DNA of 64,000 nucleotides, taken from NCBI RefSeq assembly GCF_008831545.1, contig NZ_CP044525.1, positions 62,001-126,000 on the forward strand. The letters run 5' to 3'. The position numbers and the translations under genes are program-made. The notes under the pieces are model-generated. The model was not told the DNA's origin, ran no database searches, and worked only from the letters and a program-made list of their open reading frames with translations. The stretch is from Halorussus halophilus (GTDB taxonomy: Archaea > Halobacteriota > Halobacteria > Halobacteriales > Haladaptataceae). The first letter of the stretch is position 1, and the number at the start of each line of letters is the position of its first letter. Below, piece after piece: positions 16,928 to 39,074 of the stretch.

Positions 16928-18672
<1,745 letters not shown>

Positions 18673-21835: not shown

Positions 21836-22609
21836 CTATTGATCAGGCATAAAGTTGTGATCAATTTCTCCGCTGAACTCTTTGGCGACGAACTCATTGC
21901 GAAGCGTGCCGACCCCTTCGACTTCGACCTCGATAGTGTCTCCGTCGCTTATTGGGCCGACACCCGACGTGGTGCCCGTTGCAATTACGTCCCCTTGCTC
22001 GAGGGTAATTAGATTCGTAATCTCCGCTATCAATTCGGGAATAGAGAAAATGAGGTTATCTACAGTTGACTTCTGTTGGACCTCGCCGTTCTTCCGCAGT
22101 TCGATTGCGGCATCGTCGGGAACCCGATCGGATGACGCGACGACCGGGCCGATCGGGGCGGCGTTGTCGAACGACTTCCCGCGCACCCAGTTCTGTTCCT
22201 GACGCTGGTCGTCTCGATTCGAGAGGTCGTTGACGCAGGTGTACCCCGCGATGACGTCTTCGGCGTGGTCGGCCGAGACGTTCCGACACTGCTCGCCAAT
22301 GACGACGCCCAGTTCGGCCTCATGGTCGATGCGCTCTTTGTCCTCCGGGAGCGCAATCGTATCACCGTGGGCAGCCAGCGTATTCGGCGCTTTGAGGAAC
22401 AACAGCGGTCGCTCCGGGATCTCCGAATCGGTCTCCTCGGCGTGGTCTCTGTAGTTCAACCCGATACAGACGATCTTACTTGGATTGGTCGGCGGTAGTA
22501 TCCGTACCTCCTCGAGGTCGTACCGTCGATTCTCGAATACCACGTCCCCGTCCTCCCATTCTCCGAGACGTACCGAGCCTGCTGGGTCTCGGAATCGAAC
22601 TCGTTGCAT
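21836..22609 (-). CDS. FAH-family hydrolase/isomerase 1
   Basis: A 257-residue member of the fumarylacetoacetate hydrolase family. It shows [28 protein letters not shown], the metal-binding [22 protein letters not shown], and [10 protein letters not shown]. The family cleaves C-C bonds of acylpyruvates or isomerises 2-oxo-hept-ene-dioates in the cytosol with Mg2+ or Mn2+. ATG 22609 matches the start of its paralogue at 33046 (MKRVRFLDPAG versus [11 protein letters not shown]). The C-terminus is 15 residues longer than the paralogue's. Confidence 0.9.
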
Positions 22610-22814
22610 GCTAACCATACGCACGGGTAATTCAGGTAAAAAGATTTGCCTACAGTTGCTGTTGAATGGGCGTTCACATTGCCTCGTCGGAAATTCAGCA
22701 TTTTCGAGCCGAGTTCGGGGTGGAACCGGCAATCGCACAACCTTGTGCGTGGTCGTGCGAACCTGAACACCACCCATCTGATGTTGATAAGGGCACCGCG
22801 CGAAAACGACCGGT

Positions 22815-25200: not shown

Positions 25201-25857
25201 ATGTCAACAAGCAACGCACTGTTCGCCGCGAACATCCTGACAGTCGTTGAAGGGGCGACAACGACAACCGAGGAGTTCGAGGACGCGGTGGGGGAGTACG
25301 GGGCCGAGTTCGAAGGATGCGACGCCGATGACCTAGTCTCCGCGGTTCGGCGCCGGATCGACGACGAGAGGGTGGTCGAGCAGTTCGCCGCACTCGGCTC
25401 GGCGGACTCCCGGACCGTCGCCGAACTGTGCGCACTTGCCGATCACATGGAGCCGGCGGCCGATGACGAATGGCTGCAGTTGCTCCCCCCGTTGCGGCTA
25501 TTCCGGGACGACGACGTCAGGGTCGAGGGTGCTCCCGAACCGTTCGTTCCGGTGCCAGCAACTCACCTTCCGCAGCTGACGCAGGTGTACTCGCCGTCGG
25601 TGGTCTACGCCTGGCTCGACGATTCGCGGAGCTGCGAGCTGGCCCGACGCGACCTCGAGAAGGTCTTCGAGGAGCCCCGGGGAGTGATGCCGTTCGCCGT
25701 GTACGGGCCGGCGTACAAGGAGTTCCTCGATGAGGAGTACAACCTTACCGCGGGCCCGGCGCTGTTGTTCATGCGCGAGGGGACGGTCGAGGCGCGACTG
25801 TACGGGGCCCACGGCACCACCACGATCGAGGCGGAACTGGAGCGCCACTGCGCATGA
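25201..25857 (+). CDS. Thioredoxin-fold-like haloarchaeal protein
   Basis: A 218-residue protein. The second half looks like a thioredoxin fold: SVVYAWLDDSRSCELARRDL, a middle strand MPFAVYGPAYKEFLD, a cis-Pro-like LTAGPALLFMREG, and VEARLYGAHG. The CxxC motif is missing; DSRSCEL has one Cys. The N-terminal half is helical and acidic. It is divergent from the aldo/keto reductase and precedes the ABC transporter operon. It has relatives beside haloarchaeal dipeptide transporters as far as I recall. Role unknown. Confidence 0.55.
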   Translation: MSTSNALFAANILTVVEGATTTTEEFEDAVGEYGAEFEGCDADDLVSAVRRRIDDERVVEQFAALGSADSRTVAELCALADHMEPAADDEWLQLLPPLRLFRDDDVRVEGAPEPFVPVPATHLPQLTQVYSPSVVYAWLDDSRSCELARRDLEKVFEEPRGVMPFAVYGPAYKEFLDEEYNLTAGPALLFMREGTVEARLYGAHGTTTIEAELERHCA

Positions 25858-25945: not shown

Positions 25946-26014
25946 ATGTACCACATCATGACCGTCGATGGAGAGGGTGAATACGGGGTGCCGGTGTCGT
26001 GGGGGATCCGATGA
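25946..26014 (+). CDS. Possible 22-codon leader peptide of the ABC operon
   Basis: ATG 25946 opens a frame for MYHIMTVDGEGEYGVPVSWG and two more residues, ending with TGA at 26012-26014, which overlaps the permease ATG as ATGA. CTTTATGG 20-30 bases upstream may be the TATA box. The tight overlap suggests coupled translation. It could also be the last codons of a lost gene. Confidence 0.35.
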   Translation: MYHIMTVDGEGEYGVPVSWGIR

Positions 26015-26913
26015 GCGTCGCGGAACGGTTCGAAGCGTATCGGGAGAGCGACTTCGTAATCATCACCCGACGGACGCTCCGGAACCTCCTCTCAGAGCGA
26101 ATCACCAAGTTCGCGTTCGCAATTCTAGTCGGGATTCTGATTCTGGGCATCATCGGACCGATGATCGCCCCGTACCCATACAACGAGCAGCAGACGACCG
26201 CCGACGGGGAACTGATGCGATACGAATCGCCGTCGTTCGAGCACCCGCTCGGCACCAACGACCGGGGAGAGGACGTACTCTCCCGGCTTCTGATCGGCGC
26301 GCGGACGACGCTGATCACGGGACTGCTCGCGGGTGGGCTGATGATGACCGTCGGACTGGCCGTGGGGATGACCGCCGGCTACGTCGGGGGGAAGACCGAG
26401 AGCTTCCTCATGCGTTTGGTCGACTTCATGTACGGCATCCCGTTCATCCCGTTCGCAATCGTTCTCATCACGTTCTTCGGCGCGGGCTTCTACACCACGA
26501 TTGCGATTCTCGGTCTCGTCCTCTGGCGGTTCATCGCCCGAGTGATACGCTCGCAGGTGCTCCAGATCAAACAGCGGCCGTACATTATGGCCGCGCAAGC
26601 CTCGGGCGCGAGCACGACGTGGATAATGCGCAAGCACATCCTGCCGAACATCGCGAACATGGCCGCCCTGTTCTTCGCGATGGGGGTCGGACTGGCGATA
26701 CTCGAACAGGCCGGCCTCTCGTTCATCGGCGTGACCGACCCATTCACGCCCACATGGGGCATCATGATTCGCAACGCCAACCAGGCCGGACGGGTCGCGG
26801 ACGCGTGGTGGTGGTCGTTCCCGCCGGGCATCATGATAGCACTGACCGTCCTATCGCTGTACCTCCTCGGACGGGGCTACGAAGGCGGCAACGACGACGA
26901 GGTGGTGGTCTAA
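26011..26913 (+). CDS. dppC: Dipeptide-type ABC transporter permease DppC
   Basis: A 300-residue inner-membrane permease with six helices. An N-terminal cytoplasmic part is followed by helix one (FAFAILVGILILGIIGPMIA), an external loop with HPLGTNDRGEDVLSRL typical of DppC, and the coupling-helix EAA motif MAAQASGASTTWIMRKHILP. It pairs with the permease at 29144. ATG 26011 is preferred to GTG 25999. The order permease C, two ATPases, permease B, binding protein is unusual but complete. Confidence 0.92.
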   Translation: MSVAERFEAYRESDFVIITRRTLRNLLSERITKFAFAILVGILILGIIGPMIAPYPYNEQQTTADGELMRYESPSFEHPLGTNDRGEDVLSRLLIGARTTLITGLLAGGLMMTVGLAVGMTAGYVGGKTESFLMRLVDFMYGIPFIPFAIVLITFFGAGFYTTIAILGLVLWRFIARVIRSQVLQIKQRPYIMAAQASGASTTWIMRKHILPNIANMAALFFAMGVGLAILEQAGLSFIGVTDPFTPTWGIMIRNANQAGRVADAWWWSFPPGIMIALTVLSLYLLGRGYEGGNDDEVVV

Positions 26914-26914
26914 C

Positions 26915-27958
26915 GTGTCCGACCCATTACTCGAGTTCGAGGACGTCTACATCCGCTACCGAACCGACGGGTTCAACGACGTCCACGCGGTCAACGCCGC
27001 CTCGTTTTCGATCGACGAACACGACTACTTCGGATTGGTCGGCGAGAGCGGGTGCGGCAAGAGCACAATCGCCGACGCAATCGTCGGGGGCCTCGACGAC
27101 AACGGCGAGGTCGTCTCGGGGACGATCCGGTACAAGGGCAAGGAGATTCAGGACTACTCCGAGGCAGAGTTCAACAAGAACATTCGCTGGAAGGAGATCT
27201 CAGTGATCCCCCAATCGTCGATGAACAGCCTCGACCCCGTGATGAAGCTGAGCGAGCAAGCCGTCGAGATGGCGAAGTACCACACCGACCTCTCGAACGC
27301 CGAGGCGCTCGACCGACTCCGGGAGCTGTTCGACGTCGTCGGGCTGTCAGAATCCCGAATCGACGACTACCCGCACCAGTTCTCGGGCGGGATGCAACAG
27401 CGGGCGATCATCGCGTTCGCGCTGTTCCTCCGGCCCAGCCTGATCATCGCGGACGAGCCGACGACGGCGCTCGACGTCATCATGCAGGACCAGATCATAG
27501 ACCACATCAACGGCCTGAAAGACGAGTGGGACGTCAGCATGCTGCTCATCACGCACGACATCTCACTAGTGTTCGAGAACTGTGACTCGATGGCGGTCAT
27601 GCACGGCGGCCAAATCGCCGAAGCGGGCACGGTCGAGGACGTGTTCGACCACCCGCGGCACCCGTACGCGATCCTCCTCCAGAACGCGTTCCCGGACGTG
27701 CGCTTTCCGGACCGCGAGCTGGCCGTGATAGACGGGCACCCGCCCCAACTTCACGACGAGGTGGACTTCTGCACGTTCGTCGATCGGTGTCCGTGGGCCG
27801 AGCCCGCCTGCCGCGAAGGTGCGCCTCCGGCGAACCCCGTGACCGGCGACGAGGACCACCTCGCGTGGTGCATCCGGGCCGACGAGATGTCGGAGCTGGC
27901 GGCCGAGTACCTCGACCGCTCGACCGAGTCGACGAGTATCTTGGAGGGAGAAGGATGA
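26915..27958 (+). CDS. dppD: Dipeptide-type ABC transporter ATPase DppD
   Basis: A 347-residue ATPase from GTG 26915. Walker A is GESGCGKST, the signature FSGGMQQR, Walker B LIIADEPTTALD, and the H-loop LLITHDISL. The C-terminal oligopeptide-transporter extension has the usual cysteines (CTFVDRCPWAEPACREG). It powers uptake with its partner at 27955, which it overlaps by ATGA. Confidence 0.93.
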   Translation: MSDPLLEFEDVYIRYRTDGFNDVHAVNAASFSIDEHDYFGLVGESGCGKSTIADAIVGGLDDNGEVVSGTIRYKGKEIQDYSEAEFNKNIRWKEISVIPQSSMNSLDPVMKLSEQAVEMAKYHTDLSNAEALDRLRELFDVVGLSESRIDDYPHQFSGGMQQRAIIAFALFLRPSLIIADEPTTALDVIMQDQIIDHINGLKDEWDVSMLLITHDISLVFENCDSMAVMHGGQIAEAGTVEDVFDHPRHPYAILLQNAFPDVRFPDRELAVIDGHPPQLHDEVDFCTFVDRCPWAEPACREGAPPANPVTGDEDHLAWCIRADEMSELAAEYLDRSTESTSILEGEG

Positions 27959-29034
27959 GCGCCGACGAACCGGTCTTCGAGCTACGGTCGCTGGAGAAGC
28001 ACTTCGACACGACCTCGGGGCTGACTGAGACGATCAAAAACCGGCTTGCCGGCAGGGAGCCACGACTGGTGCGGGCGGTCGACGACGTCGACCTGACGCT
28101 GGAGGAGAACCAAGTCCAGGGCGTGATCGGCGAGAGCGGTTGCGGGAAGACGACACTGTTGCGGACCCTTATCGGGCTCTACACTCCAACGGGCGGCGAG
28201 ATGCGATTCCACGGCCGACCGACGTCGGAGTTCACCAAGGAGGAGTGGAAGGAGTTCCGCCAGCAGGTCCAAATCGTCTTCCAGGACCCCTTCAACTCCC
28301 TCGATCCGAAGTTCAGTGTGCGCCGGACTCTGGCTGAGCCGCTACAGATTCACGGTATCGACTACGACCGCACCGACATCGAGGAGATGCTGGAGACCGT
28401 CGGCCTGACGCCGGCGAGCCAGTACATCCAACAGTTCCCGAACCAGCTCTCCGGTGGGGAGAAACAGCGTGTCGCCATCGCGCGGGCGTTGATCACCGAG
28501 CCCGACGTGATCCTGGCCGACGAACCGGCGTCGATGCTCGACGTGTCGACGCAGGCCGAGATTCTGAACCTTCTGAACGAACTCACCGACGAGTTCGGCG
28601 TTTCGATGGTGTACATCTCCCACGACCTGTCGACGGTGTCGTACATCTGCGACTGGATCAACGTAATGTACCTCGGACGGATCGTGGAGAAGGCGCCGAC
28701 CCGGGAGTTGCTCTCGAACCCCAAGCATCCCTACACGCAGTCGCTGATTCGCTCCATCCCGATACCGGACCCACATTACGAGCGCGAGCAGGCGACCATC
28801 GGGGGCGAGCCCGGGGACCCGATAGACATGCCCCAAGGGTGTCGGTTCAAGAACCGATGTCCCAAGCAGATGGGGATTTGCGACGAGACGCCCCTCGACG
28901 TCGCGCCCGACGGTGACGAGGACCGCACGGTCGCCTGCCATCTCTACTACGACCACGAGACGGAGGCCGAGTCCGAGATGAGAGAACGACCGAGCGACGA
29001 CTTTCGTCCGAGCAGTCCGGAGGACACGGTATGA
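27955..29034 (+). CDS. dppF: Dipeptide-type ABC transporter ATPase DppF
   Basis: A 359-residue ATPase starting at ATG 27955 inside the stop of dppD. Walker A GESGCGKTT, signature LSGGEKQRVAIARAL, Walker B VILADEPASMLD, H-loop ISHDLSTVSYI. The C-terminal cysteine-bearing extension is GCRFKNRCPKQMGICDE. An insert after strand one (GLTETIKNRLAGREPRL) is seen in some DppF relatives. A further 30 residues at the C-terminus are acidic. Confidence 0.92.
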   Translation: MSADEPVFELRSLEKHFDTTSGLTETIKNRLAGREPRLVRAVDDVDLTLEENQVQGVIGESGCGKTTLLRTLIGLYTPTGGEMRFHGRPTSEFTKEEWKEFRQQVQIVFQDPFNSLDPKFSVRRTLAEPLQIHGIDYDRTDIEEMLETVGLTPASQYIQQFPNQLSGGEKQRVAIARALITEPDVILADEPASMLDVSTQAEILNLLNELTDEFGVSMVYISHDLSTVSYICDWINVMYLGRIVEKAPTRELLSNPKHPYTQSLIRSIPIPDPHYEREQATIGGEPGDPIDMPQGCRFKNRCPKQMGICDETPLDVAPDGDEDRTVACHLYYDHETEAESEMRERPSDDFRPSSPEDTV

Positions 29035-29147
29035 ACAGAGACGCGTTACACGTTCACGACGACAGTGAGACGCACTGTGCGACGACAGACGGGTTGCCGC
29101 CCGCCGGTGGGGCGGCGGCGTCGAGGACCAGAGGTGAGTGCTCATGA
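29031..29147 (+). CDS. Possible 38-residue bridging ORF in the ABC operon
   Basis: ATG 29031 overlaps the dppF stop (ATGA), and this ORF's own TGA (29145-29147) overlaps the dppB ATG (ATGA). It would encode MNRDALHVHDDSETHCATTD and 18 more residues, partly Gly/Ala-rich. The double overlap suggests a way to keep ribosomes moving across the 110-base gap. A product has not been shown. Confidence 0.4.
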   Translation: MNRDALHVHDDSETHCATTDGLPPAGGAAASRTRGECS

Positions 29148-30145
29148 GCCGCCTGCGGTATTTCGCTCGGCGCACTCTGGTGACGGCGGTACTCATCTTC
29201 CTCGTCGCAACGGCATTGTTCCTGTTCTTCCGGTTCATGCCGGGCGACTACACCTCGCTACTGGTACAGCAGGGGATGGACCCCCAGCAGGTCGAGGCAT
29301 TGAAGCGTAAATGGGGCCTTGCCGCGCCGTTGCACGTCCAGTACTTCCGCTACATCCTCAACATCCTGACGGCGGACGTCGGTCAATCGTTCCGCTACGG
29401 GGAACCCGTCTGGGACCTGGTCTGGCCGCGGATCCTCAACTCGTTCGTACTGGTCGCGCCCGCCATCACGGCGACGTACATCATTGGGGGTATCTTCGGC
29501 GCGATTATAGGCTGGCGCCGTGGCGGATACCTCGAGAAAACCGGGATCATCGGTGTCTCAGTGTTCCACTCCATTCCGGACTTCTTCCTGGGCATCATCC
29601 TGATCGCGACGTTCTCCTCGTCACTGGGCATCTTCCCGACGTCAGGGATGCTCTCTGCGCCGACGATGATCATGATCGGGGACCAGCCGTACTGGCATCG
29701 GTTCTTGCTGCCGGAGTTCTGGATGCACTACGCGCTCCCCTTCGCGACGGTGACGCTGTACTTCATGCAGTACCCTGCGCTGATCATGCGCAACAGCGTC
29801 GTCGAAGTGAGCGACCAAGAGTTCCTCCACTACCACCGTCTGAAGGGGCTTCCGCAGTCGAAGCTACTGCGGAAGATCATCCGCCACGCGTCCCTCCCCG
29901 TCGTCACGCTCTACCCCATCTCGCTGGCGGCCTCCATCAGCGGACTCGTCCTGATCGAGATCGTGTTCAACTGGCCCGGAATCGGCTCGCTGCTGGTCAG
30001 TTCGGTCTTGGCGCGGGACTTCCCGGTTATCCAGTTCGTGTTCTTGGTCGCCGCTGTCTGGGTGATCCTCGGGAATTTCCTCGTGGACTTGCTCTACGGG
30101 GTGCTTGATCCGCGCGTCTCCGTCGGCGGCGACGAAGCCGAGTAG
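29144..30145 (+). CDS. dppB: Dipeptide-type ABC transporter permease DppB
   Basis: A 333-residue permease. It has the DppB start (RLRYFARRTLVTAVLIFLVA, FRFMPGDYTSLL), a large external loop with LHVQYFRYILNILTADVGQS, and the coupling EAA region LHYHRLKGLPQSKLLRKIIR. ATG 29144 is preferred to GTG 29138. The C-terminus (LVDLLYGVLDPRVSVGG) is the family's usual end. Confidence 0.93.
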   Translation: MSRLRYFARRTLVTAVLIFLVATALFLFFRFMPGDYTSLLVQQGMDPQQVEALKRKWGLAAPLHVQYFRYILNILTADVGQSFRYGEPVWDLVWPRILNSFVLVAPAITATYIIGGIFGAIIGWRRGGYLEKTGIIGVSVFHSIPDFFLGIILIATFSSSLGIFPTSGMLSAPTMIMIGDQPYWHRFLLPEFWMHYALPFATVTLYFMQYPALIMRNSVVEVSDQEFLHYHRLKGLPQSKLLRKIIRHASLPVVTLYPISLAASISGLVLIEIVFNWPGIGSLLVSSVLARDFPVIQFVFLVAAVWVILGNFLVDLLYGVLDPRVSVGGDEAE

Positions 30146-30439
30146 ACTCTGTGGGTCATCGGGTTCGGCGTCGATAGGGGGTCCCCGATTCGGCGTTTGG
30201 GATGGCACCGCGCGACGCTACAGTTCGACTGCGTCGGCATTGGGCGGGATAGTTCGAACGCTCGACCGTCTCCGGTAGGTGCGAACGGCGGAACTCCTGA
30301 CTATTTCGAAGCGGCCCCATAAACGTGGTATTATTTACATTAACTAAGGCTGTAGTTTCTCGAGAAGGAAGAAATTAAGCGCCGAGACGGTTTCAATGTC
30401 ACCGGTATTATTTTATCACCGGGTGTAGAGGTGTGTTCC

Positions 30440-32215
30440 ATGCCAACGAATGGCAAAGAGAACGGCATTGACAGGAGAAGGGTGCTGCAAGCAATAGGTG
30501 CAGCAACAGCCGCCGGGCTGGCCGGACGCGGCGGCGCGACACGACAGGAGACGACGACAGAGGGCGGTGGTGGTGGCCTAGGCGAGCGCGTGCCGACGCT
30601 GACCTTCCAGTACTGGTCTGACCAAGGTCCGCCGACGGTCCTGTTCGAGGAGACCATCTCGAACATCCAGTCGGTCGCCTCGGAACTCGGTATCCAGATC
30701 GAGACGCAGCCGATGACGACAGCCCAAGGGATCACCGCAGTCAGCGACGACGTGCGTGATTTCCACGTCGCGGTCAACAGCCACGGACCCGACCCCGGCA
30801 GGCTCGACCCCAACAACCTCCTGCAATCGTACAGCATCGACCGAGCAGGGTCAAACGGAGAGTACAACCCCTCGAACTACGCGAACACGCAGTTCTCGAA
30901 TCTGGCAGACCAGCAAGAATCCATCGGCGTCCCACAGGAACGCCGACAGGTCGTGGGCGAAGCGATGAGCATCTACTCGGAAGACCTGCCGTTCATCCCG
31001 ACGATAGAGCGGCCGACGACCGCCGCGATCAACACCGACATGGTTCAGTCCATCGAGGCCGGTGGCGCGGGACTATCCGCAGTCAACTGGTCCGCGCTGG
31101 TCGAAAGCGGCGCGCAGACCCAGTCGGGAACAGACACGATTCTGGGGAACCTTCCCGGTGAATTCCTCACGAGCAGCTTCTATCCGACCGTCGGCGACAC
31201 TGACTCGCTGGGACTGTACACCCAACTGACCCACTCGCCGTTGATGTTGTACAACTCCAACTACGAACGGGTGCCCGTGCTAGCCGAAGGGCTCGGACAG
31301 GTTTCCGACGACGGGACGGCAGTCACGTTCAACCTACGGGACGCGACCTTCCACAACGGTGACCCGGTGACGCCCCAAGACGTCAAGTGGACCTACGAGT
31401 TCTTGGCCGCCCAGTACCACGAGGGCAACTATCAGTGGACCGCGCTGCCCGAAGAGCTGACCGTCGAGGTCGTCGACGACAGCACGGTCAGGTTCGTCAC
31501 ACCGGAGCCGTCCCCGACACTGGTGACGGCCCAGTTGCCGACGTTCGGGGTGCTACCGCGCGATCCCTACGTCGAGGCCGGTATCGAGGAGAACCCGACC
31601 GACTTCGAGGACCCGATGATCGGCGCCGGCCCCTACCGGATAACGCAGTACAACAACCAGGAGAACATCGCACTCGAGCCCCACGACGGGAATCCTCAGT
31701 TCGAGGTCCAATCGCCGATGATCCTGCAGATCTACGACAGCGTCTCAGCGGTTCGGCGGGCGTTCGAGAACGGCGAACTCAGCATCGCGGTGACGCTGAC
31801 GCCCGACGCCGGCCGCCAGATCTCTAACAGAATGGGCGACACCACCCAGATTGTCAACGGTGCGGCGTTCCTCCCGTTCGGGATGATGCCCCAGATGTCG
31901 TACGCGCCCGGGATGTTCCGGGAGTTCCGTCAGGCACTATCGTACGCAGTCGACCGCCAGGGCCTCAACGATACCTACGCGTTCGGCGAGTCCGAGGAGG
32001 TCACCTACTGCACGTTCAACTCCCAGCAACACCCGTGGTACGACGAGCAGTATCTCACTCAGGTTGGCGGTGAAACGCGCAACGTAGAGGCCGCTCGTCA
32101 AGCCCTCTCCGAGGCCGGTTGGGGATGGGACGACCAGGGCAGGCTCCACTACCCGCCGGACGCCAACCTGGAGGCCTGGCCGGAAGGCGAGACGCCCAAC
32201 CCCGAGAACTTCTGA
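30440..32215 (+). CDS. ABC transporter substrate-binding protein, apparently circularly permuted
   Basis: A 591-residue exported SBP_bac_5-type protein. A Tat-like signal is seen (DRRRVLQAIGAATAAGLAG), but the usual lipobox Cys is Arg (LAGRGG). Residues about 53-205 resemble what is normally the C-terminal lobe (IQSVASELGIQIETQPM, VVGEAMSIYSEDLPFIPTIE). Residues about 255-591 then start with the normal N-terminal part (VLAEGLGQVSDDGTAVTFNL, FHNGDPVTPQDVKWTYEF) and end at RQALSEAGWGWDDQGRLHYP, where an ordinary protein would go on into the C-lobe. A TATA-like TTTTATC is near 30410. Substrate unknown. Confidence 0.85.
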   Translation: MPTNGKENGIDRRRVLQAIGAATAAGLAGRGGATRQETTTEGGGGGLGERVPTLTFQYWSDQGPPTVLFEETISNIQSVASELGIQIETQPMTTAQGITAVSDDVRDFHVAVNSHGPDPGRLDPNNLLQSYSIDRAGSNGEYNPSNYANTQFSNLADQQESIGVPQERRQVVGEAMSIYSEDLPFIPTIERPTTAAINTDMVQSIEAGGAGLSAVNWSALVESGAQTQSGTDTILGNLPGEFLTSSFYPTVGDTDSLGLYTQLTHSPLMLYNSNYERVPVLAEGLGQVSDDGTAVTFNLRDATFHNGDPVTPQDVKWTYEFLAAQYHEGNYQWTALPEELTVEVVDDSTVRFVTPEPSPTLVTAQLPTFGVLPRDPYVEAGIEENPTDFEDPMIGAGPYRITQYNNQENIALEPHDGNPQFEVQSPMILQIYDSVSAVRRAFENGELSIAVTLTPDAGRQISNRMGDTTQIVNGAAFLPFGMMPQMSYAPGMFREFRQALSYAVDRQGLNDTYAFGESEEVTYCTFNSQQHPWYDEQYLTQVGGETRNVEAARQALSEAGWGWDDQGRLHYPPDANLEAWPEGETPNPENF

Positions 32216-32314: not shown

Positions 32315-33046
32315 TCAGTCGAACCGGACCTCGTTCCGGAGGGTGCCGACCCCGTCGACCTCAATCTCCACGCTGTCGCCCTCCTCCAGTCGGCCGATTC
32401 CCTCAGGGGTCCCCGTGGCGATAACGTCGTCGGGTTCGAGCGTCATCAGCTTCGTTATCTCCTCGATGAGTTCCGCTACCGGGAAGATCATCTTGTCGGT
32501 CGTAGCCTCCTGTTTGACCTCGCCGTTCACCCGTGACTGGACCGTCGGGTTTTCGGGCAGTTCGTCCGGCGTCGCCACCACCGGGCCGATCGGCGCGGCG
32601 TTGTCGAAGGCCTTCCCGCGAATCCAGTTCTGCTCTTTGCGCTGGTCCTCGCGGTTCGAGAGGTCGTTGACGCAGGTGTACCCCCGTATCACGCTCTCGG
32701 CGTCCGACGCGGAGACGTTCCGGCACTGCTCGCCGATGACCACGCCCAGTTCGGCCTCGTAGTCGATGCGCTCCTTTTCTGCCGGCAGGGAGATTGTGTC
32801 GCCGTGTGCCGCGAGCGTGTTCGGTCCCTTCAGGAACAGTAGCGGCCGGTCGGGGACCTCCGAATCGGTCTCTGCGGCGTGCTCGGCGTAGTTCCGCCCG
32901 ATGCAGACGATCTTTGACGGGTCGACCGGCGGGAGCATCCGGACATCGTCTCGGTCGTACGTCCGGCCACCGAAGGTGACGCCGTTGTCGGTCCACTCGC
33001 CGCGCCGTTCGCTTCCAGCCGGATCGAGAAATCTCACCCGCTTCAT
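32315..33046 (-). CDS. FAH-family hydrolase/isomerase 2
   Basis: A 243-residue paralogue of the FAH protein at 21836, alike along its whole length ([72 protein letters not shown]). The metal ligands are kept. It is convergent with the binding-protein gene. The two copies may act on successive or related acylpyruvates, or be a duplication within the island. Confidence 0.9.
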   Translation of the reverse strand: MKRVRFLDPAGSERRGEWTDNGVTFGGRTYDRDDVRMLPPVDPSKIVCIGRNYAEHAAETDSEVPDRPLLFLKGPNTLAAHGDTISLPAEKERIDYEAELGVVIGEQCRNVSASDAESVIRGYTCVNDLSNREDQRKEQNWIRGKAFDNAAPIGPVVATPDELPENPTVQSRVNGEVKQEATTDKMIFPVAELIEEITKLMTLEPDDVIATGTPEGIGRLEEGDSVEIEVDGVGTLRNEVRFD

Positions 33047-33323: not shown

Positions 33324-34772
33324 TCACTCCGGGTACGACTCGTCCCACGGGCGCTTGCGCTCAAAGGCGGCGCTCGCCGCGAGCACGTCGTCGTCCGCGA
33401 ACCGTCCACCGACGACCTGCATTCCTACTGGGAGGCCGTCGTCGGTGAATCCGGCCGGAATCGACGCCGCGGGATGACCGCTCATGTTGAACGGTTGGGT
33501 GAGAACCCAGCCTCGGAGCGGTTCGACCTCGGTTCCGTCTATCTCGGTCGGATGCTCGCCGTGGGGGAACGGTGGGACCGCGAGCGTCGCCGTCGCGAGG
33601 AGGTCGTACTCGGCGAATAGCTCGCGTAGTGCATCGTATATCTGCGTACGGACGACGTCTGCGAGCTTGTACTCCCGGGTGGTTACCGGGTCGGATTCGA
33701 GGATGGTCTCGACGGTGACCGGCCGGAGGCGGTCGCGGTCCGCGCCGCGGGGGTCCAGGTTGCGTTCGGTTTCGAGTGCGTCGAACAGTGCCTCCCAGCG
33801 CACCTTTGCGAACGTGTAGAACGCGTCGAGAACGTCAGCCTGTTCGAGGTCGAGAGCGGGATCGGCGCGTTCGACGACTGCACCGGCGCGTTCGAAGGCA
33901 TCGACGGCGTCGTCGAGGACGGCCCGAACTTGAGGGTCGAGCGGATAGATACCGAAGTCCGGGGTGTACGCGACCCGCAATCCGTCTATCGAGCGCTCGG
34001 TAGCGGCGACGAAGTCGGTCCCGTCGTCGGGGAGGGTGAAGGGATCGACCGGGTGTGGGCCCGACATCACATCGAGCATCAGTGCGGCATCCTCGACCGA
34101 ACGGGCCATGGGACCGAGGTGTGTGAACGGTGTGTGGTGGCCGAACGCGTCGGGGCGGCTTTCAATGGGGACGCGACCGAACGACGGCTTCAGACCGTAC
34201 ACGCCGCAGAACGAGGACGGCGTTCGAATGGAGCCCCCGGTGTCCGACCCCTGCGCCAGCGGGACGAGCCGGTCGCCGAGGGCCGCGCCGGCACCCCCGG
34301 ACGACCCACCGGCATTCCTGTCCGGGTCGAACGGGGTTCCAGTCGGCCCGAAGACCCTGTTGTCGGTCGTACACCCCAGACCGAACTCTGGCGTGTTCGT
34401 CTTGCCAATCACGATTGCATCCGCGTCGAGGAGGCGTTCGACGAACGGTGCGTTCGCGTCGGCGACGTGATCCTCCAGCAGTTTCGACCCGTGAGTCGTG
34501 ACCACCCCAGCAACGTCGTCGAGGTCCTTGATCGCGACCGGGACGCCGGCCAGCGGCCCGAGAGATTCGCCGTTCTCGACTGCCTCGTCCACCTCTCTGG
34601 CTGTTTCGCGCGCCAGTTCGTCGGTCACCGTCACAAAGGCGTTGGTTCGGTCGTTCCGTTCATCGATTCGCTTCAACAGTGCTTCGACTATCGCGGTGGC
34701 CGTGAGGTCGCCCTCACGGACTCGTCGCGCCACCCCCGCCGCCGTCAAGCCGTGTATCTCGGGATCAGCCAT
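33324..34772 (-). CDS. Amidase, amidase-signature family
   Basis: A 482-residue Ser-Ser-Lys hydrolase. Lys is in VPVAIKDLDDVAG, and the Gly/Ser region with the two serines is AQGSDTGGSIRTPSSF. KTNTPEFGLGCTTDN and VYGLKPSFGRVP are further family marks. It splits amides to acid and ammonia in the cytosol. I chose ATG 34772 (MADPEIHGLTAAG); a TTG at 34817 in frame adds 15 residues. It lies next to the aldolase on the same strand, likely co-transcribed. Confidence 0.9.
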   Translation of the reverse strand: MADPEIHGLTAAGVARRVREGDLTATAIVEALLKRIDERNDRTNAFVTVTDELARETAREVDEAVENGESLGPLAGVPVAIKDLDDVAGVVTTHGSKLLEDHVADANAPFVERLLDADAIVIGKTNTPEFGLGCTTDNRVFGPTGTPFDPDRNAGGSSGGAGAALGDRLVPLAQGSDTGGSIRTPSSFCGVYGLKPSFGRVPIESRPDAFGHHTPFTHLGPMARSVEDAALMLDVMSGPHPVDPFTLPDDGTDFVAATERSIDGLRVAYTPDFGIYPLDPQVRAVLDDAVDAFERAGAVVERADPALDLEQADVLDAFYTFAKVRWEALFDALETERNLDPRGADRDRLRPVTVETILESDPVTTREYKLADVVRTQIYDALRELFAEYDLLATATLAVPPFPHGEHPTEIDGTEVEPLRGWVLTQPFNMSGHPAASIPAGFTDDGLPVGMQVVGGRFADDDVLAASAAFERKRPWDESYPE

Positions 34773-34864
34773 GTCCCCGTACTCGTCGGCGACCTGCAAA
34801 AGCTTATCCTCGACCAAGCGACGTGCCGTGTCCGGCCGCCCGAGCGCTCGGTCCGTCCCGCCGA

Positions 34865-35653
34865 CTACTCGTTCGGTTCACCGGCCGTCGACCGGAGATG
34901 GTCTATCCGTTCACCGAGTACCGCACGGGCCGCCGAAATTTCGTCGCCGACGCGCAACAGCCGATACCCCTCCTTGAGCGCGGATTCGCCGGCCGCACGG
35001 TCGTTGGCTACACATCCGACCGGGACGTCGGCCGCGAGGCACGCGTCCCGAATCGTCGCGACGGCCTCCCGGACCTCCGGATGCTCCTTTTTGACGGGGT
35101 AACCCAGCGCGACCGAGAGGTCGGCGGGCCCGATGAAGGCGAACCCGAGTTCGGGCACTGACAGGAGTTCGTCGATGTCTTCAAGTGCGGCCTTCGTCTC
35201 GATCATCGTTCCGACGACGATGTCCTCGTCTGCTGGACGCGCTCGCGCGCCCCACGCGTTCGCACGGCCCGTTGTCGCACCGCGGCCACCGGGGTCCCCA
35301 TCGTACGTGAATCGAGTTTCCGAGACGACATTCCGGAGCTGGGTGGCCGTTTCGACGTGTGGCACGAGGATGGTCCGGACGCCCGCGGCGAGTACCTTCT
35401 TGACGATCGTCGGGTCGGGGTCGGGAAGGCGGACCAAGGGTTCGATGTCGGCCGCGTCGGCCGCACGGGTCAACTCGTCGACGACGGTGCTGTCTAGGGG
35501 ACTGCCGCCAAGTTGTTCGAAGTCGAGCCACGCGAAGTCGAACCCGAGCGCGCCGTACACCTCGATGACGGCGGGCGACATTGTCATCGCCTTCGCGCCG
35601 ATCACGGGTCTCCCCTCATTCCAGTTGCGGCGAATCGTGTTATTGGATGCCAT
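34865..35653 (-). CDS. HpcH/HpaI-type aldolase
   Basis: A 262-residue class II aldolase of the HpcH/HpaI fold, which splits 2-oxo-4-hydroxy acids to pyruvate and an aldehyde with a divalent metal. Visible parts are ALGFDFAWLDFEQLGGSP, LVRLPDPDPTIVKKVLAAGV, RTILVPHVETATQL, the metal Glu in GTMIETKAALEDID, and Asp in FIGPADLSVALGYP. The position after FE, usually His in relatives (EH), is Gln here. ATG 35653 is preferred to the longer frame start at 35743. Confidence 0.88.
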   Translation of the reverse strand: MASNNTIRRNWNEGRPVIGAKAMTMSPAVIEVYGALGFDFAWLDFEQLGGSPLDSTVVDELTRAADAADIEPLVRLPDPDPTIVKKVLAAGVRTILVPHVETATQLRNVVSETRFTYDGDPGGRGATTGRANAWGARARPADEDIVVGTMIETKAALEDIDELLSVPELGFAFIGPADLSVALGYPVKKEHPEVREAVATIRDACLAADVPVGCVANDRAAGESALKEGYRLLRVGDEISAARAVLGERIDHLRSTAGEPNE

Positions 35654-35903
35654 GGGAGGACTGAAACCGCCCATGGAGTTGAACATTTCGTGGGGAGTAC
35701 TGGTGGTCGAGCCAGTGCGTGAGAGTTCAGCGTGGGACGACAACCCGCCGATTCAGCATTTTCGAGGTGGAGCCTTCGGCCTCAAGGAGCGAACGTAGTG
35801 AGCGAGTAGGCCGGAGAGGAAACCGACATGGTACAACACAACCGCCACACTGCGACCACTCGACTCCCGCATGTTTAAGAACCGTCGAGTACACATCTGA
35901 AAC

Positions 35904-37163
35904 ATGGAGGTCCGGCGAACCGTGTCCGTCAAACTCGTCGTCCCCGACGAACGCTGCGACGACCTCCACGCATCCGCCCGGCAGTTCCTTCACTGCGCCA
36001 ACCGTGCCACCGAGTTCTGTTGGTCCAACAACTCCTACACCGAGTGCGTCACGGCCAACACAACCGCACGAGACGCGCTCTACGACGACCTCCGCGACGA
36101 AACCGATCTCACCGCGAATCTCGTTCAAGAAGCTATCCGACGCGCCGTCCAAGCAGTCAAAGGATGCGTCGAACGATGGAAGAACGGCAAGCGAGTGAGC
36201 CAACCGAAGTTTACGTCGTGGAGTATGCTCTACGACAAGCGCAGTGCCACGTTCTATCGGAACAAAGTCTCGCTCTCGACTGTCAACGGACGTGTCGAGT
36301 GTGACTTTGAACTCCCCTCGGACAGCCCCACACCATACGAACGGTACGTGCTGTCAGAGGAGTTCGAGTTCCGTGCAAGTACGCTCCAGTACGACGCCGT
36401 GGACGACGAGTTCTACTTCCATATCACCACCCGGAAGTACGACGTAGAAGGAGACGACGGTGGGGACGTAGAGGTTCCGGCAGATACTGAGCACCAAACA
36501 GTCCTCGGTATCGACCTCGGCGTTAACAGTCTCGCCGTCTCCTCCACCGGGCGCTTCTGGCACGGAGACGATTACGACCACTGGTGCCGCGAGTTCGAGA
36601 AGCGACGTGGCGAGATGCAACAGCGCGGGACGCAAGCCGCTCACAACGCCCTGCTTCGCCTCGGCAAACGCGAAGAAGCATGGCGGAAACAGTACATCCA
36701 CACGGTCGCTAACGAAGTCGTCACGGAAGCCCTCGAACACGACTGCAATGTAATCGTGTTCGAGGATTTGACCGATATTCGAGAGCGACTTCCACAGGCG
36801 AAGTGGCACCACGTATGGGCGTTCCGACGTTTGTTCAAGTACGTCTCCTACAAGGCTCCGGAGCGGGGTATCTCCGTAGAACAAGTCGAGCCGAACCATA
36901 CATCCCAACGCTGTTCTCGGACGGACTGTGGGTTCACGCACGACGATAACCGCCATGGAGAACATTTTGAGTGCCAGAAGTGCGGCTACGAGGTCAACGC
37001 GGACTACAACGCAGCGAAGAACATCGGGACGCGGTACGCTCGAAAGCGGAGACACAGACTCCGTTCCTCGCCCACGTCGGGGAGCGGAGACGCACCAGTA
37101 GACGTGCGTGTGAATGGTGGGGCGTTGAACGGCGAGAGTTACCGGCCTATTGCCGGGGACTGA
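35904..37163 (+). CDS. tnpB: RNA-guided endonuclease TnpB
   Basis: A 419-residue TnpB with all three RuvC acids: Asp about 204 (LGIDLGVNSLAVS), Glu about 287 (VIVFEDLTDIRERL), and Asp about 367 (VNADYNAAKNIG). The zinc finger is CSRTDC/CQKC. It is a complete protein, so it may be active. The tail from about 378 on is Arg-rich and then low in structure. Confidence 0.92.
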   Translation: MEVRRTVSVKLVVPDERCDDLHASARQFLHCANRATEFCWSNNSYTECVTANTTARDALYDDLRDETDLTANLVQEAIRRAVQAVKGCVERWKNGKRVSQPKFTSWSMLYDKRSATFYRNKVSLSTVNGRVECDFELPSDSPTPYERYVLSEEFEFRASTLQYDAVDDEFYFHITTRKYDVEGDDGGDVEVPADTEHQTVLGIDLGVNSLAVSSTGRFWHGDDYDHWCREFEKRRGEMQQRGTQAAHNALLRLGKREEAWRKQYIHTVANEVVTEALEHDCNVIVFEDLTDIRERLPQAKWHHVWAFRRLFKYVSYKAPERGISVEQVEPNHTSQRCSRTDCGFTHDDNRHGEHFECQKCGYEVNADYNAAKNIGTRYARKRRHRLRSSPTSGSGDAPVDVRVNGGALNGESYRPIAGD

Positions 37164-37364: not shown

Positions 37365-39074
37365 ATGGCAGTCGTTGAAGGAAGCTGTAGGTACGTTCTA
37401 GACCCAGACGACCCCGAAACATGGGGTGGTCGTGAAGGTGATGAATGCCACGTCGATGATGAAATACTGAATGAAGACGGTGTATGGACGTGCCCACACA
37501 GTGCCGAAAGGGATGGTGAGTTCTGTGTATTTCATCAACCAACGACTGAGAAAGACGATGAAGACGTCGTCGAGGCCCTCCGAGAAATCATCGAGACAGC
37601 CACCAAGAGCGATGAGAACGACCAGCAGAATGAACTCTTAGGCTTTCTTGGTGCACGATTCGGAACGGTTGATCTGAGCGAGAACCCACTTGACCTCACA
37701 ACCACGAAAAGTGGACTGGATTTCTCCTACGCTTCGATTGAGGGCGAATGGGATTGGTCTGATTCGATACTCAATATCCCGTACATTCGATTTATTGGCG
37801 CTTCATTCTCGGGGAATGTGAAATTCCGGGACGTAGTCTTCGGGGGTGAGATTAACTTTCGCGGAGTGGAATTCAGGCGCAATGCGAGTTTCTTGTGTGC
37901 GGAGTTCAATGGTTCGACGACGTTCGATCAAGCAGAGTTTCGAGGCTACGCAAACTTCATCGATACAGTATACGAGACGAATGCCAGTTTCGTAGAAACC
38001 ACGTTCAGGGAGCTAACGCGGTTTCGAGACGTGGAATTCAAGGACGAGTGTAGCTTCAATCAAGCAGTATTCGGGGACACCGCAAATTTCAGTGATGGCG
38101 AATACGTTGGAGTAGCGAAGTTCTACGGTGTCGAGTTCAATGGGTCGGCTTACTTCCGGGGCACGAACTTCACCGGGGAGACCTACTTCCGGAATGCGAA
38201 GTTCAGTGAACGGTCTGATTTTGTCGAGGTGAATCTCCAGGGCGTAACGTTCATCGATGCAGACGTCTCCGACGTCCGCTTCACTGACGCTGATTGCCGT
38301 GAGGCGAACTTCGAATCAGCGATCATGAGCCGCACAACCTTATTCGGAGCTGACTTCCGGGGCGCGAAACTCTCGGGAGCGATTCTCGGCGATGTCCGAG
38401 TTGACCAGGACACCCGGTTTCTTGGACATCACGATACCGAGACCGAATCGTCTCCACACAGTCGGTCACTGATTCGTTCCCGACCGTGCTGTGTGTATGA
38501 CCCCGACTACGAGCAGGATACTAACTTCGAGGATGTTGACAAGGCAAAAAGCGTGTATCGAGCACTCGAAGAGCTTGGACGACGAGCGGCTCGCCCTCGA
38601 TTACAAGCACAGTGTTTCGTCCGACGCCAAGACCTCCAGAAGAACGCCTACTGGAATGTGGCTACTGATCCCGAGACATCTCTCAGAGAGCGATTGATCG
38701 CTGGATCCCGGTGGAGTCGAGCGCGAACTGCAGAATTAGTAATCCTGTACGGCGAGAGCCCGTGGCGAATCATCGCCTATAGTCTCGGTGTGATTCTTAC
38801 GTTTGGATTGCTCTATCCCCTGGGTGGATGGGTGAGAACTACCGCAACTACTGGCTCCCAGTCACCGGTGACGTATGCGCGGATTGTTGAAGACCCGATG
38901 TTACTCTGGAAGAGTATCTATCACAGTGCGATGTTGTTCGCGACGGGGAATCGCTACGGCGGAGTCATGGCTGTCAATTTCACTGGTGAAGTACTCACAG
39001 CCACAGAAGCCCTCCTCGGACCAACACTATTAGCACTATTAGTGTTCGTGCTCGGTCGAAGAGCCGCTCGATAA
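37365..39074 (+). CDS. Pentapeptide-repeat protein with channel-like C-terminus
   Basis: A 569-residue protein. The N-terminus has a Cys/His cluster (CPHSAERDGEFCVFH, about 40-60) that could bind zinc. Residues about 120-345 are pentapeptide repeats, many of the form xFxxx (VKFRDVVFGGEINFRGVEFR), which stack into a right-handed four-sided helix. A helical linker follows (KAKSVYRALEELGRRAARPR). Two membrane helices (IIAYSLGVILTFGLLYPLGG and LGPTLLALLVFVLGR) flank a pore-loop-like stretch MLFATGNRYGG, like a weak version of a two-helix ion channel. Function is unknown; a membrane sensor or effector is possible. Confidence 0.75.
   Translation: MAVVEGSCRYVLDPDDPETWGGREGDECHVDDEILNEDGVWTCPHSAERDGEFCVFHQPTTEKDDEDVVEALREIIETATKSDENDQQNELLGFLGARFGTVDLSENPLDLTTTKSGLDFSYASIEGEWDWSDSILNIPYIRFIGASFSGNVKFRDVVFGGEINFRGVEFRRNASFLCAEFNGSTTFDQAEFRGYANFIDTVYETNASFVETTFRELTRFRDVEFKDECSFNQAVFGDTANFSDGEYVGVAKFYGVEFNGSAYFRGTNFTGETYFRNAKFSERSDFVEVNLQGVTFIDADVSDVRFTDADCREANFESAIMSRTTLFGADFRGAKLSGAILGDVRVDQDTRFLGHHDTETESSPHSRSLIRSRPCCVYDPDYEQDTNFEDVDKAKSVYRALEELGRRAARPRLQAQCFVRRQDLQKNAYWNVATDPETSLRERLIAGSRWSRARTAELVILYGESPWRIIAYSLGVILTFGLLYPLGGWVRTTATTGSQSPVTYARIVEDPMLLWKSIYHSAMLFATGNRYGGVMAVNFTGEVLTATEALLGPTLLALLVFVLGRRAAR

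Follow-up and report, generated by a model that had tools for sequence, protein, structure and literature searches.

Does the gene at positions 30440-32215 of the analyzed window, i.e. the whole 64,000-nucleotide stretch of Halorussus halophilus DNA, encode an ABC importer receptor whose two halves have exchanged places? The host is a salt-loving archaeon, and the original prediction, made from the letters alone, held that this nutrient-binding protein is circularly permuted, with its halves encoded in swapped order. Our analyses lead to the same view. The window protein is a circularly permuted family-5 binding protein (SBP; cluster C, OppA/DppA/NikA-like) with a fold predicted with high confidence, and we are highly confident in the overall reading of it as a working and presumably secreted receptor, for which ligand binding, docking, substrate, anchor position, and an origin by duplication are discussed below in conditional terms. 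The permutation is confirmed and reaches further than originally predicted. It defines a new topological variant of a known family that is widespread, under selection, and has arisen more than once, while its function, substrate, and benefit are matters of expectation.

Sequence evidence for the permuted order

The open frame contains no internal stop, and the TATA-box-like stretch preceding its ATG (Table 1) fits a leaderless haloarchaeal transcript. The encoded chain begins with a Tat-like start, DRRRVLQAIGAATAAGLAG, in which a run of arginines is followed by a hydrophobic stretch (Pfam TAT_signal, 13.4 bits versus a cut-off of 22.7), and continues with a Gly/Thr-rich spacer. Block 1 comes after the spacer (VPTLTFQYWSDQG...SEDLPFIPTIERP), next a linker, then TDTILGNLP..., and the chain finally ends in EAGWGWDDQGRLHYPPDANLEAWPEGETPNPENF.

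Table 1. Features of the permuted SBP gene, its operon, and its neighbors in window coordinates
Feature	Coordinates	Strand	Evidence
Conserved first gene of the neighborhood, "thioredoxin family protein" in annotated relatives	25201..25857	+	
OppC/DppC-type permease	25999..26913	+	Pfam
OppD/DppD-type ATPase	26915..27958	+	Pfam
OppF/DppF-type ATPase	27955..29034	+	
OppB/DppB-type permease	29138..30145	+	Pfam
AT-rich TATA-box-like stretch (tattattttat), ~29 bases 5' of the ATG	30406..30416	+	Read from sequence; function putative
Permuted family-5 SBP gene, 591 aa, ATG at 30440	30440..32215	+	Frame, Pfam, phmmer, profile, fold
Tat-like signal (RRRVLQAIGAATAAGLAGRG)	30473..30532	+	Sequence; Pfam TAT_signal under its cut-off
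Block 1, canonical C-terminal part, residues 46-198	30575..31033	+	Profile and fold
Linker from canonical C-terminus to canonical N-terminus, residues 199-232	31034..31135	+	
Block 2, canonical N-terminal part, residues 233-570	31136..32149	+	Pfam, phmmer, fold
C-terminal tail (...YPPDANLEAWPEGETPNPENF)	32150..32212	+	
FAA hydrolase family enzyme, recurrent neighbor	32315..33046	-	
Amidase family enzyme, recurrent neighbor	33324..34817	-	
HpcH/HpaI aldolase family enzyme, recurrent neighbor	34865..35743	-	

Membership in the superfamily is evident from Pfam SBP_bac_5 (PF00496), which scores 167.6 bits against a cut-off of 32.4. The match is confined to residues 278-569, corresponding to positions 3-286 of the 368 in the profile, and the C-terminal part of the profile is missing afterwards. 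Residues 1-277 receive no Pfam annotation apart from the weak Tat signal, and both Pfam and NCBIfam recognize block 2 only, leaving the first ~230 residues blank. This annotation pattern speaks for a canonical, truncated SBP preceded by an unrelated N-terminal domain, which the original prediction had itself named as the result that would count against it. A block 1 profile built from 33 members and searched against the PDB argues strongly to the contrary, as all 46 of its matches are family-5 type binding proteins. It aligns with the C-terminal part of every full-length chain among them (DppE 379-496, the best match, E 1.5e-10; DppA 362-487; NikA-like 347-469), and the first ~190 residues of the window protein match that lobe alone. 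A column-reversed control of the profile yielded nothing significant among the canonical SBPs of the organism's own genome. Together with the fold comparison of block 1 described below, these results refute an unrelated N-terminal domain, a reading to which we attach a vanishingly small probability.

The order of the permuted blocks can also be read from searches with the intact protein. A phmmer comparison with solved structures places residues 275-564 on 5isu 56-339 and, as a weak second piece, residues 76-187 on 5isu 360-464, so that the pieces come in exchanged order. Similarly, a full-length profile lays the two blocks in exchanged positions both on its best chain, 5isu, and on the canonical SBPs of the organism's own genome, which carry the blocks in the opposite order to the window protein. 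Rescoring with a rotated profile was abandoned in favor of this order of pieces, since HMMER sums local pieces regardless of their order and its scores do not separate the two arrangements. The permuted order was seen in no PDB chain in the phmmer, profile, or structure comparisons against solved structures.

Predicted fold and location of the cut

As the original prediction had suggested, the protein was modeled and compared with DppA/OppA. The AF2 model of the mature protein has a pLDDT of 92.6 and a pTM of 0.89, and VIA-align superimposes model residues 180-532 on approximately the first 360 residues of OppA/DppA/NikA-type chains with Z scores of about 20-22 (e.g. 177-526 on residues 1-360 of OppA, 1ola; 180-535 on 5isu 37-367). 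Block 1 folded alone reaches a pLDDT of 77, which is of moderate confidence only; residues 1-185 of this model align with 1ola 349-517 and residues 1-148 with 5isu 355-492 (Z 10-11). In the models, the two blocks jointly cover the whole OppA chain, in swapped order. The structure matches listed for the window protein are cluster C proteins, and it is the reversed block order that leads us to file it as a permuted variant rather than as a canonical member of that cluster.

OppA consists of domain I, which is assembled from three pieces, domain II, and domain III, the latter spanning about residues 271-486. When the alignments are read against this layout, domain III contains the cut and domain I the ends that have been joined. 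Block 1 comprises the distal half of domain III and the last part of domain I, whereas block 2 comprises the start of domain I, domain II, and the first half of domain III, up to the break point EAGWGWDDQGRL. The original prediction had taken EAGWGWDDQGRL as the ending of the protein, at the position where the C-terminal lobe would begin. It quoted the right residues, but a tail of ~20 residues follows them and the break is located within the C-terminal lobe rather than at its boundary. Its description of the general arrangement, with a C-terminal lobe segment first and the N-terminal part after it, agrees with the profile and fold results for block 1 and with the Pfam and fold results for block 2.

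A conserved transporter operon

The SBP gene lies beside two permease genes and two genes for oligo_HPY-type ATPases, as do those of canonical OppA/DppA. The operon is intact, in line with the earlier view of it as otherwise complete, and the order thioredoxin-like protein, permease, ATPase, ATPase, permease, permuted SBP is identical in nine relatives. The product of the first gene has no Pfam match; this gene lies ahead of those for the transporter in all relatives inspected.

Chain ends

The absence of a lipobox Cys had been recognized previously and is evident from the alignment as well. Residue 30 of the window protein is Arg (CGC, 30527-30529) at a position occupied by the lipobox Cys in 30 of 33 aligned rows; L016 has Tyr, and the lipobox of L002 is misplaced by the alignment. 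With this Cys absent, the window copy might be released instead of anchored.

Many relatives extend the C-terminal tail with FPC-x, and the Cys of this motif co-occurs with a second Cys at the position of Thr150 (30887-30889). The Cys in NYANC and the Cys in the C-terminal FPC are both present in 25 of the 33 rows and both missing from the other eight, with no row carrying one alone, although the tree suggests approximately one gain and one loss of the pair, and the correlation therefore rests on few independent events. The window copy belongs to the eight rows lacking both (window positions 30887-30889 and 32210-32212). The aligned residues may reflect a disulfide that staples the new C-terminal tail to block 1 and was lost in the window copy.

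Distribution and selection

Looking for this order among further haloarchaea, likewise proposed at the outset, was productive far beyond expectation. Full-length collinear relatives with 65-89% identity occur in nine haloarchaeal species (Halorussus, Halorubrum, Halegenticoccus, Halalkalicoccus). The window protein as a single query detects a collinear relative in 52 of 391 haloarchaeal genomes (E 1e-30), and the 33-member profile detects full-length permuted relatives in 154 of the 391, i.e. ~40%, representing 52 of 86 genera, at a threshold of E 1e-51, slightly stricter than the strongest canonical match observed (7.5e-50). Among the profile matches listed, each extends from position 34 or earlier to position 524 or later of 550. 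In bacteria, where the search covered plasmids, permuted SBPs are encoded on those of the alphaproteobacterial genera Nitratireductor, Roseomonas, Ketogulonicigenium, Microvirga, Maritalea, and Neorhizobium. The plasmid-encoded proteins that were aligned share the start, end, and break points of the haloarchaeal ones, and their genes adjoin permease and ATPase genes wherever annotation exists. The H. halophilus genome encodes another permuted SBP (L002, G000:C3, 1009-2997), which belongs to a different subfamily and keeps its lipobox; by eye, a CaiB/BaiF-like CoA-transferase gene lies 3' of it.

Compared with the nearest relative (L010), block 1 of the window gene has a dN/dS of 0.07 and block 2 one of 0.11, and both blocks, as judged from these ratios of about 0.1, are under purifying selection. 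A decaying pseudogene or an assembly or annotation artefact might be suspected from the lost lipobox Cys of the window copy, yet the frame is free of stops, dN/dS is low, and the operon is intact. An artefact as the source of the swapped order is refuted by the presence of the same order in many separately sequenced genomes, and we regard this whole explanation as having next to no chance of being correct. The earlier expectation that the gene is probably used is supported by the order conserved in many species, the low dN/dS, and the conserved operon. Since the swap occurs in about 40% of the sampled haloarchaeal genomes and in some bacteria, and has also appeared, recently and separately, in one other archaeal genus, it is a real and recurrent protein rearrangement, for which databases carry no flag.

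A second, recent permutation

The latter case emerged from profile matches in a different class of the same phylum. Three genomes of one genus there (G490, G529, and G482) encode permuted SBPs (L116-L118) whose alignment with the query is collinear across 1-534 or beyond, while their congeners G466, G616, G478, and G589 (L119-L122) and several other genera have the canonical order. Permuted and canonical proteins of this genus are 83-87% identical in both blocks. The G490-type cut (AGYSE / DNK / LKLELWW) lies in the same loop as that of the haloarchaeal permuted SBPs. The leader 5' of the ATG in the recently permuted genes resembles that of the canonical genes, whereas the neighbors further away differ; remnants of a tandem duplication adjoining the recently permuted genes were sought and none were found.

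This genus also bears on whether the blocks could derive from different parents, with the C-terminal part of one SBP having been fused ahead of a second, truncated SBP. Because the haloarchaeal event lies far back and no immediate canonical parent came to light, the descent of each block is untraceable in that lineage, which leaves some room for such a chimera. Both haloarchaeal blocks are similarly identical to each orthologue, although this reveals only that they have evolved together from the event onward. Where the permutation is recent and independent, however, each block shares 84-87% identity with one and the same gene, and we consider a chimeric origin improbable, permutation of one gene being the preferred explanation.

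In a tree of rotated permuted proteins and canonical proteins, 39 haloarchaeal and alphaproteobacterial permuted rows group together (SH-aLRT 95-96). Once the canonical congeners are added, at least three changes of order are required, on the branches starred in the tree, and a single origin of all permuted SBPs was rejected accordingly; resolution among the deeper groups is poor, and a history of fewer gains combined with reversals is formally compatible. A single permuted clade is only borderline rejected by the AU test (p 0.041). A recent, separate permutation in a genus with canonical congeners implies that the same loop was cut more than once, and two or more independent changes of order in this loop are well supported. 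Another permuted SBP from the class of the recent case, L084 (G549:C2:103906-105408), ends in a tail of ...PGFG, a hydrophobic stretch, and RRRR, reminiscent of an archaeal C-terminal anchor. It clusters close to the recent case and may represent a separate event.

Relationship to known systems

The family-5/cluster C SBPs (SBP_bac_5; OppA, DppA, AppA, NikA, and CtaP, 5isu) resemble the window protein in the sequence and fold of both blocks and in their opp/dpp operon partners, but the window protein has its blocks exchanged, both of its termini in domain III, and a linker connecting the ends in domain I. The permuted SBPs of the G490 group share its scaffold, cut loop, and block order; they differ in stemming from a separate recent event, in a linker of only ~6 residues, and in having no C-terminal Cys tail. 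Natural circular permutations of ABC importer receptors are hardly documented, the one found in the literature being TpMglB-2 (Tp0684) of Treponema pallidum, a cluster B glucose-binding SBP that still binds glucose and changes shape, and for which a link between permutation and membrane anchoring was raised (PMC4990184). TpMglB-2 and its relatives ("cluster Bc", PMC4990184) are similarly natural circular permutations of an ABC importer binding protein. However, TpMglB-2 is a cluster B (type I) sugar binder in which only the first three N-lobe strands have moved, whereas the window protein is of cluster C and is cut in the C-terminal lobe. No report of a permuted cluster C, OppA/DppA, or SBP_bac_5 protein was found in the open-licence literature, an absence that is weak evidence.

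The present permutation concerns the OppA/DppA scaffold class, occurs in ~40% of the sampled haloarchaeal genomes and on some alphaproteobacterial plasmids, and is not captured by the family models. A broader proposal, which we hold to be about as probable as its opposite, is that cluster C permutation recurs at one domain III loop in archaea and bacteria, this loop being a tolerated cut site and the shift of the anchor from domain I to domain III being useful; permuted SBPs would then form a large, unrecognized topological class of ABC importer receptors, comparable with the canonical form within at least one genus. The recent event supplies closely related permuted and unpermuted proteins from a single genus, through which it becomes possible to measure directly how permutation affects folding, anchoring, docking, and transport.

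The permuted chain begins with a strand within the C-terminal lobe (domain III), reaches the canonical C-terminus in domain I, crosses the ~34-residue linker to the canonical N-terminus, and ends in the cut domain III loop. Several expectations follow for its function. Since fold, hinge, and lobes would be kept, ligand binding by lobe closure is to be expected, as is docking onto its own two permeases and two ATPases in the manner of DppA/OppA. What would change is the location of the chain ends, such that the signal or lipid anchor of the family is placed on domain III and not on domain I. The arrangement probably originated when one SBP gene was duplicated in tandem and the copies fused, the leading N-terminal part and the trailing C-terminal part presumably being lost afterwards.

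Genes for an FAA hydrolase, an amidase, an HpcH/HpaI aldolase, and an aldo-keto reductase recur nearby in the relatives, and the neighbors in bacteria and Halalkalicoccus jeotgali include M20/M28 peptidases, hydantoinase/oxoprolinase, and creatininase. The adjoining FAA hydrolase, amidase, and aldolase genes suggest, as a guess from gene neighborhood, that the substrate could be a small organic acid or amide rather than peptides. Two FAA hydrolase family genes flank the operon, one per side (21836-22777 and 32315-33046), and two TnpB-like frames (IS200/IS605 accessory), recognized by eye, likewise lie one on each side of the region (17356-18630 and 35904-37163). At 37365-39074, the window encodes a product with many pentapeptide-like repeats and C-terminal hydrophobic segments.
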